This document shows positions 1 through 6,134 of a stretch of 6,633 nucleotides of DNA, in pieces. The first letter of the stretch is position 1; each line of letters opens with the position of its first letter. The translations under genes were made by a program, and so were the position numbers. This stretch comes from a bacterium. GTDB lineage: Bacteria > CSSED10-310 > JAJRTK01. The notes below the pieces were generated by a model. It worked only from the letters and a program-made list of their open reading frames with translations, was not told the origin of the DNA and searched no databases. The stretch is from the NCBI GenBank assembly GCA_024278345.1, contig JAJRTK010000439.1:1-6633 (forward strand). The letters are read 5' to 3'.

Positions 1-21
1 CTCGGTCATGGTACCGGCCAC
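1..21 (+). repeat. Left arm of perfect 21-bp inverted repeat
   Basis: This is the exact reverse complement of 175-195. Pairing stops inward at base 22 (g opposite g174). The outward limit is hidden by the window edge. Confidence 0.9.
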
Positions 22-174
22 GGTTCAGATTTCAGACGCCGCCCCGGGGCTTCCAGCCCTGGAACCCGGCGGAGGCTCCGCCTCCGGACCTCCGCTGGGA
101 GCGCCGCTCCCAGACCCACGCCAGGGAGCCAACTCCCTGGCCCCACATCTTTGTGCGCTGCGTGCTTTTTTCGG

Positions 175-195
175 GTGGCCGGTACCATGACCGAG
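175..195 (-). repeat. Right arm of perfect 21-bp inverted repeat
   Basis: This is the exact reverse complement of 1-21. It follows the T-run at 166-171 and ends at the boundary with the unassigned stretch that starts at 196. Confidence 0.9.
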
Positions 196-1684: not shown

Positions 1685-1769
1685 CGGAGGGAGTGGGATT
1701 CGAACCCACGGAGCTTTGACACTCAACGGTTTTCAAGACCGCCGCCTTCGTCCACTCGGCCATCCCTCC
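1685..1769 (-). tRNA. tRNA-Ser (anticodon UGA)
   Basis: An 85-base type II tRNA. The acceptor stem is GGAGGGA (5' end at 1769) with TCCCTCC (1692-1686), discriminator G at 1685. The D-arm region TGGCCGAGTGG is shared with the neighbouring tRNA-Ser. The anticodon stem GCGGT/ACCGT (one G-U pair) encloses CTTGAAA, giving anticodon UGA (plus-strand 1733-1735), which reads UCA and, by wobble, other UCN codons. The T-arm contains GGTTCGAATCC. The genome reads TCA after the discriminator, so the 3' CCA end must be made by CCA-adding enzyme, unlike in the adjacent gene. Confidence 0.97.
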
Positions 1770-2135: not shown

Positions 2136-5100
2136 TCATTCTTTCCGGGAAACCTCTTTGGCGTGGCGCTCGGCGTAGGCCAAGATGATGCCGATTCTCT
2201 CTTTCTCCCCGGAGTCGTTGGTTCGGGCCACGAGGGCAGCGTAGTTTCGCAGGATTTCTAGGATATCGGGCCTGGCCAGAAAATTCCGGCTGAGATCGCC
2301 AAAGAGTTCTCTTCGGATTTGCTCGACGAAGTCCATGGCCCTCTCCAGGGCAAAAAGCGCCTGTGACGGGTCCTTGGCGGCAAGGCAAGCTCGGGCTCGG
2401 AGTCTCCAGGCATTCAAAAGCCCTTCGGTGTAACCGATTCCGGAAGCACTCTTGAGGGCTTGGCTAAGGACGGCTAGAGCAGTGTCGGGGCTGTCGGCGG
2501 TCATCTCGACGTCGCTCAACAAGCAGGAGAAATCCACTGCCATCCCCAGAAAGCCGGCGCTTCTGGCGAAAGCCAAAAGATCAGTGGCACAAAAGCGGGC
2601 CTCGGCCAATTTACCCGCTTTGAGATCCAGGCTGGCCAGCGCCCATCTCAGGCCCAATTCTTGGAGTTTTTCTCCACGTCGGTTGGCAACCTCCAACCCC
2701 TGCAACCACAACCGCACAGCCGTTCCATCGTCGCCCAACTCGAACCGGAGGTTCCCGCTGAGCAGACAGAGCTCGGAGAGGTAGGCCTCTGTTCCCAATT
2801 CGCCGTGAGCCTGCCATGCTTCTTCGAGGTGCGCTCTTGCCTTTTCCAGATCTCGGACCCGCAAATAGACGGTGGCCAGGTTCTTGAGGCTTTCCAGAAT
2901 GCCGGCCAAATGGCCAAGGCGGCGACGGATTCCCAGGGCTTCGACTCCGGTGACGAGGGCCTCATTGTAGCACGAACGAGCGGTCAAGACTGCCGCCAAC
3001 GTCCCCAACGCTCCGGCCACTTTGAGGGGAAGCCCCAGAGCGCGGAAGATCTCCAGGGATTCGCGGCTTCGCCGCTCCGCTTCCACGTAGTTCCCCAGGA
3101 CGATCTCCACGCGGGCCAGGTTGTTGAGAGTGTCGGCCAAACCCTGTCGGTCGCCGATTTCCCGGGAAACATCCAGAGATTCCCCGTAGTGGGTCAGAGC
3201 CTCCTGGTAGAGCCCCCTGGAAGCCTGGGAGTAACCCAGGTTGTTAAGGGTGACCGCCAGCCCGACCTTATCTCCTGCCTGCCGGCGGACCTCAAGGCTC
3301 CTATCCAAGGTTTCCATGGCCTGCTGGAATTGGCCTCTTTCCGTATGGAGGAGTCCCAAGGTGTTAAAGACGCCGGCAACTCCCATGGGGTCCTCTAGAT
3401 CGCCTTTGATTTGGAGGGCACCTTCCAGGTATTCCACGGCCTCCTGGTAACGCCCCTGGATTGAGATGAAAAGCCCGAGGTAGAGCAGCATGTCGGCCAC
3501 TCCCGCATAATCGTTGAGTTCGTCAAAGAGCGCGATGGCCGTCTGATAGTGGTCCCACGCCTGGGCAAACTCTCCGCGGCCGGCGCGGATGACGCCAAGC
3601 TGCTGGTGTGCCCGTGCCACGGCCGAAAGTTCTCCGGCATCCCGCCCCAGTCGTAAGAGCTTCTGAAACTCCTTTTCGGCGGATTTGTAATCGCCCAAAG
3701 TTTGGCGGATTTCCCCAAGGTTGACATGGATTTCCAGGAGCAACGGAACAGCCCAGGCCGCACCTGCCCGGTCTCCTTTGCAGCAGGCGTCGAAGGCGGA
3801 TAAAAAAAGATCGATCGCTCGTTCGAAGTGGAACTGCTCGCGGTAGCGGCTGGCTGCGGCAGTGGCGTATTCCGCGGCCTCGTGCCACTGTTCAGCCGCC
3901 CGGAAATAGCGGCCCAGGCGCTCGACGTAGGGGGCCAAATCACCCAGGTAACGGAGCTCGATAGCACGCCCGGCGCGGTAGTGGAACTGGCGTTTGGATT
4001 CGAGATCCAACTCCTGGAGCAAGATCCGACCGTAAATGGGGTGCAGGAATCGAAACTCTTCGTCCGTTTCGTCGATGGGCTCGAGGATACCTCGCTTGAG
4101 GAGTTCGTCAAGGCCATCGAGGAGATCGTTCTCCGCGACTTGCGCCACCTTTCGAAGGAGGCCAAAGCAAATCCCTTCCCCCAAAACGGCCGCCGCCTCT
4201 CCAATCCTTCGAGCCAGCCTCGAGAGTCGCGACAGGCGGGTAGCGTAGACCGTGGCCACCTTTTCCGGAAGCTCCCTTCCGCCCAACAGCCGCCCGGAAT
4301 CGCCACGTGGCACCTCGAAAATCCACGTACCTTCGTCCAGCTTCAGCATTCCCCTTGCAGAGGCGAATTTGACGAACTCACAGATCAGGAAAGGGTTACC
4401 TCGCGACTCTCCGAACACGGCATCCACGAGGGCCTCGGGGGGCTCGCCTCCCAGCATCGAAGCGACCAGCTCCGCGCAAGCGGATCGATCCAATCGGTTC
4501 AGCCGCATTTTCGTACCCAGACTCCGGTCCCTGAGCAGGTGAAAGGAATGTCGCGGCAAACTGCTGAGCTCGGCATCGTCATCGCGATAACAAACGACGA
4601 GCAACAAGCCGCCGCACCCCGACGGCGACACTTTGCTGGGACCCACGACATTCCGCGCCACATAGGCAATGAGCTCCAGTGCGGGACGAGTCGCCCAATG
4701 GACCTCCTCCAGCACCAAGACAACCGGCAATCGCTGGGTCAACCTGGAGAGTACGCGAGCCACCGCGTCAAAAAAGCGGTATCGATTCTGCTCTGGAGGA
4801 AGCGGAGTCAGCGGAGCAGCCCGTCGGACGTAGTCAAGCTCGCCGAACGCCTCAATCTCCTTGGCCAAGACCCTACCGCACGAACCGAAGAGCCGCTTCG
4901 CGATCTCCCGGTCCTTGTTGGCAATGGTCTGGCAAAGGGCTCCCAGAATCTTCGCGAACCCTTCGTAAAGAGACTCTGCGTCCTGCCGGAATGCCCCGCG
5001 AAAAAGGCCGATCTTCCGGCGCTTTGCCCGATGTTCCAGCTCGTCGATGAGTCGGCCCTTTCCGATGCCGGACTCACCGGTAACCTCCACCATGTCCCCA

Positions 5101-6134
5101 AGTCCCAAACGAAGGCGGCCCAGCATCCCCGTCAAGAGGTCCAGTTGTTCGTGCCTTCCCACAAGCGGCGGCTCCGCCACTCGGGTCCGTGCCAGCTCCC
5201 AGGCTAAGCGAGGCGGTGTGATCCCCGCGAAGGTCAGGGTTTCGTCGGGGATTTCCAGGCCTCCAGGAATCAGGTTGAGCAGGCTCCTTGCCAGGGCCGC
5301 CGCCGTGTGAAACCTCTTGGAGGGCTCCTTCTGCAACAGCTTCCGGACGATCTCCTCAAGCTCAAGCGGAATGTCTGGCAGCTCCGAGGAAAGCCGCGAA
5401 GGCTCCTCATAGACGTGGCAATAGATCAAGGCGCCCAGCCGTTTGGAGACGAAAGGGCGATGACCGGCAAGAAGCTCGTAGAGAATGAGCCCCAGGGAAT
5501 AGAGATCACTCTGTGGCAGCGGCTTTTCCCCCAACGCCTGCTCCGGAGAAAGATAGGCCGGCGTGCCCAAAACGACTCCAGGTCCCGTGAGATCGAGATC
5601 CATTCCCTCTTCCCGGACATCGTCAAGACGCTTTAGGAGGCCAAAATCCATGATCCGAACCTGGCCCTGGTGATCCACCAAGATGTTGGCCGGCTTCAGG
5701 TCCCGATGCACGATTCTCTGGTCGTGGACGTAATCAAGGGCAGCCGCCGACTGCACCATCACCGAGAGCAACTTCCGAAGGCGACCGGAGCTGACAAGTT
5801 CCGAAGGAGAGAGCTCCACATTCCCCGAAAGCCCCATGTACGCCTTAATATCAGAGCCATCCACAAACTCCATGGTGAAAAACGAAGAACCACCATGCTC
5901 GCCCCAATCGTAGAGGCGGATCACGTTGGGGTGCCGCAGCTTCGCCACCGACAGAAACTCCAGCCGAAAACGGCGATTGTGCTCTTCGGTCCGGGGCCGA
6001 CTGGGATTGAGAAGCTTCAGGGCCAGCTCAGCCTGCCGCACGGGGTCCCAAACCAAAAAGACACGCCCCATCCCGCCTCGCCCCAAAGGCCGGATCACCT
6101 CGTATCGCCCAATCTCCCGCCACGTCTCGCTCAC
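2136..6134 (-). CDS. Ser/Thr protein kinase with AAA_16 ATPase and TPR domains (PknK-like)
   Basis: A 1332-residue soluble signalling protein that likely phosphorylates Ser/Thr on partners in response to a bound ligand or protein. The Hanks-type kinase spans about residues 11-285: glycine loop GRGGMG (18-23), Lys40, helix C Glu59, HRDLKPAN (143-150) with catalytic Asp145, DFG (163-165), and GTPAYLSPE ending the activation segment (190-198). The HRD arginine suggests activation-loop control. An AAA_16/STAND-like ATPase starts near 323 (LVGRHEQLDLL), with Walker A GESGIGKGR (353-361) and Walker B-like VVLVLEEVHWA (471-481). About a dozen TPR units with 40-residue spacing follow from about 765 to 1272, several with the LNNLG/LNNLA core. 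There is no signal peptide, membrane segment or DNA-binding domain. All kinase catalytic residues are present. In the ATPase, the Ser/Thr after the Walker A Lys is Gly360, and the usual LED..WAD is LEE..WAT. The GTG start at 6134 is supported by an upstream GGAGGAGGAGG. There is no operon partner: flanking spaces are about 195 and 366 bases. The substrate and signal are unknown. Confidence 0.97.
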   Translation of the reverse strand: MSETWREIGRYEVIRPLGRGGMGRVFLVWDPVRQAELALKLLNPSRPRTEEHNRRFRLEFLSVAKLRHPNVIRLYDWGEHGGSSFFTMEFVDGSDIKAYMGLSGNVELSPSELVSSGRLRKLLSVMVQSAAALDYVHDQRIVHRDLKPANILVDHQGQVRIMDFGLLKRLDDVREEGMDLDLTGPGVVLGTPAYLSPEQALGEKPLPQSDLYSLGLILYELLAGHRPFVSKRLGALIYCHVYEEPSRLSSELPDIPLELEEIVRKLLQKEPSKRFHTAAALARSLLNLIPGGLEIPDETLTFAGITPPRLAWELARTRVAEPPLVGRHEQLDLLTGMLGRLRLGLGDMVEVTGESGIGKGRLIDELEHRAKRRKIGLFRGAFRQDAESLYEGFAKILGALCQTIANKDREIAKRLFGSCGRVLAKEIEAFGELDYVRRAAPLTPLPPEQNRYRFFDAVARVLSRLTQRLPVVLVLEEVHWATRPALELIAYVARNVVGPSKVSPSGCGGLLLVVCYRDDDAELSSLPRHSFHLLRDRSLGTKMRLNRLDRSACAELVASMLGGEPPEALVDAVFGESRGNPFLICEFVKFASARGMLKLDEGTWIFEVPRGDSGRLLGGRELPEKVATVYATRLSRLSRLARRIGEAAAVLGEGICFGLLRKVAQVAENDLLDGLDELLKRGILEPIDETDEEFRFLHPIYGRILLQELDLESKRQFHYRAGRAIELRYLGDLAPYVERLGRYFRAAEQWHEAAEYATAAASRYREQFHFERAIDLFLSAFDACCKGDRAGAAWAVPLLLEIHVNLGEIRQTLGDYKSAEKEFQKLLRLGRDAGELSAVARAHQQLGVIRAGRGEFAQAWDHYQTAIALFDELNDYAGVADMLLYLGLFISIQGRYQEAVEYLEGALQIKGDLEDPMGVAGVFNTLGLLHTERGQFQQAMETLDRSLEVRRQAGDKVGLAVTLNNLGYSQASRGLYQEALTHYGESLDVSREIGDRQGLADTLNNLARVEIVLGNYVEAERRSRESLEIFRALGLPLKVAGALGTLAAVLTARSCYNEALVTGVEALGIRRRLGHLAGILESLKNLATVYLRVRDLEKARAHLEEAWQAHGELGTEAYLSELCLLSGNLRFELGDDGTAVRLWLQGLEVANRRGEKLQELGLRWALASLDLKAGKLAEARFCATDLLAFARSAGFLGMAVDFSCLLSDVEMTADSPDTALAVLSQALKSASGIGYTEGLLNAWRLRARACLAAKDPSQALFALERAMDFVEQIRRELFGDLSRNFLARPDILEILRNYAALVARTNDSGEKERIGIILAYAERHAKEVSRKE

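Follow-up and report, generated by a model that had tools for sequence, protein, structure and literature searches.

A hairpin-rich 201-bp repeat with 24-bp inverted ends is very probably a MITE mobilised by a DUF6399 transposase

What kind of sequence occupies the start of contig C378, where four GC-rich hairpins follow one another between perfect inverted repeats, and how has it spread? This contig of 6,633 nucleotides, from a draft genome of 6.06 Mb that comprises 550 contigs, constitutes in its entirety the stretch analysed here (the window). The original prediction, made from the sequence alone, had proposed a non-autonomous mobile element or a structured, transcribed repeat enclosed by 21-bp inverted arms. 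The arms (1–21 and 175–195) are perfectly complementary as claimed. However, they are slightly longer than predicted: other copies carry three more bases at each end, GGC ahead of window base 1 and GCC at 196–198, so that the full unit measures 201 bp and has 24-bp arms of the sequence GGCCTCGGTCATGGTACCGGCCAC. Window 1–195 therefore holds a nearly complete copy, the contig starting 3 bases inside the element and the element ending at 198. The left terminal inverted repeat (TIR) on the plus strand (1–21) comprises 21 of its 24 bp, the first three (GGC) lying left of the contig start, and is followed by the left sub-terminal segment GGTTCAGATTTCAGACGCCG... (22–43, plus strand), by which the left end is recognised in 101 copies. 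The complete right TIR, GTGGCCGGTACCATGACCGAGGCC, occupies 175–198 of the plus strand (24 bp). Outside the 24-bp arms the flanks of different copies are unrelated, which identifies the arms, extended by 3 bp, as the boundaries of the repeated unit. No protein-coding content was recognised in these 201 bp, and their size lies within the range of MITEs (below about 500 bp).

Searching the source genome with the 24-bp arm, allowing up to three mismatches, revealed 233 ends with conserved arms, as against none for the reversed control. The copies in this genome number roughly 120, well over a hundred, and are mostly 95–99% alike. A DNA similarity search of the genome scored 40 copies at 92–100% identity, out of 387 first-look candidates. 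Left ends (arm plus GGKKCAGATTTC, n = 101) and right ends (arm plus CCGAAAAAAGC, n = 111) can be distinguished, and the element therefore has a defined orientation. When all subfamilies with related arm variants are included, 307 ends or about 150 elements are obtained. When 40 contigs were sampled without bias, 16 of 69 contig ends were found to stop inside an element, which accounts for part of the fragmentation of the assembly.

The ends and flanks of the copies were compared for target-site duplications (TSDs). Of the 20 standard copies with both flanks, 10 had an exact 8-bp TSD, and such duplications were also found in diverged subfamily copies (L168 at 3212, GTTGAGTT; L159 at 1388, GGATTCCC; L185 at 1438, CAAACTCA). 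Pairing the flanks of 97 left and 57 right ends gave 23 exact 8-bp matches compared with 0.08 expected (97 x 57 / 65536), and many of these matches join a left and a right end that lie on different contigs. An ISL3 transposase gene is interrupted by one of the copies. No matching TSD was seen in about half of the standard copies, for which recombination, deletion or misassembly has to be invoked. In the window, the predicted duplication is GCCAATCT at 199–206, deduced from the other copies; its partner, which would lie on another contig, was not found among the 97 left ends read. Because 8-bp duplications common to left and right ends occur far above chance, the repeat is best regarded as a non-autonomous DDE-type transposon, that is, a MITE. 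As judged from these flanks, the element is mobile with a fixed 8-bp duplication, and according to established knowledge its mover would be a transposase of the DDE type. The proposal of a non-autonomous mobile element was thereby borne out by copy number, conserved arms and target duplications as well as by the compensatory stem changes described below.

The element had also been described as adjoining integrase debris. A remnant resembling the C-terminus of a tyrosine recombinase (...RRMMGHADIRSTER) is indeed visible at about 600–780 of the window, but it appears unrelated, since copies elsewhere have many different flanks and 8-bp duplications need no integrase; no link to the element was found. 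The remainder of the window contains two tRNA genes (1539–1628 and 1685–1769, minus strand) and a 1332-aa open reading frame (2136–6134, minus strand), whose product, judged by eye, resembles a Ser/Thr kinase joined to ATPase and TPR-like segments.

The interior of the element folds far beyond chance, in agreement with the prediction. For the strand 1–195 a folding energy of -122.7 kcal/mol was obtained, which none of 200 dinucleotide-shuffled sequences equalled (z -9.4); folding as DNA gave z -9.0. All four hairpins are present on the plus strand, although the first had been placed slightly off, at 45–70 instead of 44–62. Hairpin 1 (CCGGGGCT-TCC-AGCCCTGG, 44–62) is followed by hairpin 2 (CGGAGGC-TCC-GCCTCCG, 70–86), hairpin 3 (CTGGGAGC-GCC-GCTCCCAG, 95–113) and hairpin 4 (CCAGGGAG-loop-CTCCCTGG, 121–140). 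Across 12 distinct arrays, which are related sequences, 98.4% of pair cells were standard pairs and three pairs had changed on both sides with pairing kept: one in hairpin 1 (T-A/C-G across subfamilies, in four sequences) and two in hairpin 3. No two-sided changes were seen in the control, in which the pairing partners were slid by 1–3 columns. The stem covariation that the prediction anticipated is therefore present, and these changes lend modest support to selection or templated correction of the stems.

The arrays also vary as units. The copy in contig C58 (L051) lacks exactly hairpin 4, apparently through deletion between repeats of the linker ACCCAC, the C507 copy has a longer variant of hairpin 2, and in several copies (C490, C546, C512) a different hairpin sequence interrupts hairpin 3 and replaces its tip. 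Read from these copies, the hairpins are modules that can disappear, grow longer or be exchanged without loss of pairing. Hairpin 4 has a constant stem, and the two bases at its centre of symmetry are hypervariable (CA, AC, GT, TA, GC, GG, TG, CC, GA, TT). Some copies carry foreign DNA. In C78 (L210, element from 14418 to the end) and C128 (L211, element near 1–246) a foreign sequence, GTACGCCTGAAAGC..., starts at the same point, just after hairpin 4; these are apparently putative group II introns. A group II intron domain match lies near the element end in C542 (L212, 3005–3083), and L147 is a further locus with an apparent group II intron in an element copy. Class C introns insert behind a hairpin, and the position of the apparent introns after hairpin 4 fits this behaviour. 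Another repeat, starting with GTATCCACGCAAGGCGGGACA or similar, is inserted in some copies (L090, L128, L129) and recurs elsewhere in the genome.

The arms extend well beyond this genome, into several other bacterial phyla. A related Candidatus Schekmanbacteria MAG (JACPHN, G003) contains 24 arm matches, with none in the controls. An exact scan of reference genomes with GGCCTYGTYCATCGTTTSGGCCA returned at least 110 stretches against a chance expectation of about 0.06 for the whole collection; the matches listed come mostly from MAG Yes70-08 and Legionellaceae MAGs, and also from alphaproteobacterial, Magnetococcales, Desulfobacteraceae and Thermodesulfobacteriota MAGs. In these other genomes many ends form pairs separated by 100–409 bp, which are flanked by exact 8-bp duplications and contain no open reading frame. 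The interiors differ between genomes. With the arms excluded, their mean fold z was -6.0, compared with -0.6 for neighbouring DNA, and 91% of them, compared with 6% of neighbouring DNA, had a z below -3. MAG Yes70-08 (L335, 1–8000, and other JASEGY loci) holds dozens of arm-family copies whose interiors are of several kinds; some are nested, and lengths reach 409 bp. TIR matches in Tianweitania and in the casp40 MAG fall within coding sequence, in the same homologous gene, and were excluded as elements. Searched as a whole, 1–195 gave only two short chance matches by DNA similarity in 59 other genomes and none in plasmids and phages; an exact 21-mer scan yielded no loci in viral contigs and none among the matches listed for genome contigs.

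A candidate for the partner transposase came from an alphaproteobacterial MAG (L347), in which an unpaired arm lies about 12 bases from the stop end of an open reading frame matching Pfam DUF6399 (E = 2e-45). Pfam assigns no function to DUF6399 (PF19936). A profile search of ten genomes, most of them chosen for carrying the TIR, gave 14 DUF6399 matches, at least 8 of which abut a TIR: L347, GH14, contigs C56, C87 and C127 of the Schekmanbacteria MAG, C80 of the window's genome and two Legionellaceae sites (with three mismatches). In C80 a decayed DUF6399 frame (...SHGTTAAERFFGSPPTELFEWLLP*PPLPARPARA...) is followed by the arm GGCCTTGGTCATAGTACCGACCAC, three mismatches from the arm of the window. 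Autonomous relatives with the same kind of ends exist. In Desulfobacteraceae GH14 (L377) a full DUF6399 element of 1824 bp has both arms and no duplication, and plasmid pTs417 of Ca. Thiodictyon syntrophicum (L389, 1660–3575) carries a full DUF6399 element with both arms and the TSD GTCCAACC, the only full autonomous copy with a TSD. On the same plasmid, 327 bp away from it, lies a 160-bp MITE with matching ends and the TSD GTTGCGCC; four further similar places were found on two plasmids. Since autonomous elements with the same kind of ends carry this gene, DUF6399 is, by adjacency, most likely the transposase of the element. Two other candidates were discounted as nesting or chance proximity: a remnant that follows a TIR in L245 and was identified by eye as IS91-like, and an IS630-like gene close to a TIR in L314.

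The DUF6399 proteins gave weak N-terminal HTH matches. Alignment of four full-length proteins revealed the motifs D (DETF), D (SD) and E (EGRNG), which could be a DDE triad; comparison of DUF6399 with solved structures gave no convincing match. In the assembly of the window's genome (87.9% complete) no intact TIR-type DUF6399 gene was found, only the C80 remnant and a truncated one in C387. A collapsed 1.9-kb IS could be missing from this assembly, in which the shortest contig among those read has 2.7 kb; this is an argument from absence. The genome also contains a second DUF6399 type, partial, repeated and without 23-bp ends (C188, 168–506, L375; C507, 2854–2976, L385), which is closer to the type found on cyanobacterial and Methylomonas plasmids. 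DUF6399 was not found in viral contigs and phages. Neither DUF6399 nor any of five pieces of the arm is mentioned in the literature searched; an IS of this type may already be registered.

Could the element instead derive from another IS of the same genome? The ISL3, IS1595 and IS256 families all generate 8-bp duplications, the ends of ISL3 and IS1595 start with GG, and transposase genes of both are present. Their ends differ from those of the element, though: the common boundary of the IS1595 copies starts with GGCTCTATATGCG, and the end found after the ISL3 copy reads GGCTCTTCGCC in the inward direction, neither of which matches, and both families were rejected as donors. The ISL3 gene is, moreover, itself the target of an element copy. 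IS256 was rejected because no transposase match was found in the incomplete assembly. We consider an origin from any of these three families highly improbable. Less probable still are REP/BIME-like palindromes moved by a RAYT (TnpA-REP) single-strand transposase, despite the high copy number of short GC-rich palindromes. REP sequences have neither TSDs nor long TIRs, whereas the element has 24-bp arms and 8-bp duplications, and the Y1 transposase route is not known to make either. In an unbiased sample of 429 kb, nearly all copies of the array adjoined a TIR.

The strong folding and the compensatory stem changes would also suit a repeat that the host retains for some function of its own, as a structured RNA or a transcription terminator, with transposition as a secondary means of spread. 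Unrelated members of the arm family likewise have strongly folded interiors, and the right sub-terminal segment contains a weak terminator-like short stem followed by a T run (153–171, plus strand; 1 found against 0.4 expected). On the other hand, Rfam gave no family match in the window except the two tRNAs, a consistent gene context was not established, the flanks of the copies are unrelated and their duplications typical of transposition, and the hairpin array is variable and subject to loss or replacement. Such a host-function repeat thus seems very unlikely, though slightly less so than an origin from the resident IS families; being a structured, transcribed repeat may be an additional property of the mobile element.

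We therefore conclude that the element very probably represents a new family of MITEs, mobilised in trans by a DDE-like transposase to which no function had previously been assigned, DUF6399. The enzyme acting in trans, most likely encoded by a DUF6399 gene, would recognise the 24-bp ends, excise or copy the element and insert it with staggered cuts, and gap repair would then leave the 8-bp duplication. The four GC-rich hairpins between the ends can be lost, lengthened or replaced with pairing preserved; they probably give the insertion a compact, branched fold, as DNA or as RNA, and may reduce read-through. Only tentatively, and with more doubt than confidence, we propose in addition that DUF6399 is an undescribed DDE family whose non-autonomous derivatives make up a MITE superfamily that spans phyla and has almost invariant 23-bp ends, and that hairpin packing itself is selected. 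Unrelated, host-typical hairpins would then refill the interiors under selection for transposition or host tolerance. If the main conclusion is right, the DUF6399 protein family gains a testable function as transposase and the 23-bp tag marks DUF6399-mobilised offspring in several bacterial phyla. The recurrence of hairpin-rich interiors without sequence similarity makes it a testable question why MITEs fold.

Comparison with other DUF6399 genes and with described MITEs places the element as follows. The TIR-bearing DUF6399 genes of Thiodictyon and Desulfobacteraceae have 23-bp ends of a kind with those of the MITEs, in one copy with an 8-bp duplication; the cyanobacterial-plasmid genes differ from this group in that no 23-bp end, within six mismatches, adjoins them, and the same was found for the Methylomonas genes. 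The Chunjie MITE of Geobacter uraniireducens is summarised in a review as a non-coding element of 178–235 bp with TIRs and direct repeats, variable in length and present in dozens of copies plus partial ones (PMC10969869). By description alone, Chunjie resembles our element in being non-coding and in size, TIRs, direct repeats and copy number, but its host belongs to another lineage. QMITE2 of Coxiella burnetii is reported to have 150–190 bp, TIRs, 7–9 bp direct repeats, many copies and palindromic short forms (PMC5896051). It too is similar by description alone, in size, TIRs, direct repeats and copy number; the passages that describe QMITE2 name no partner transposase, whereas the element described here has a candidate in DUF6399.
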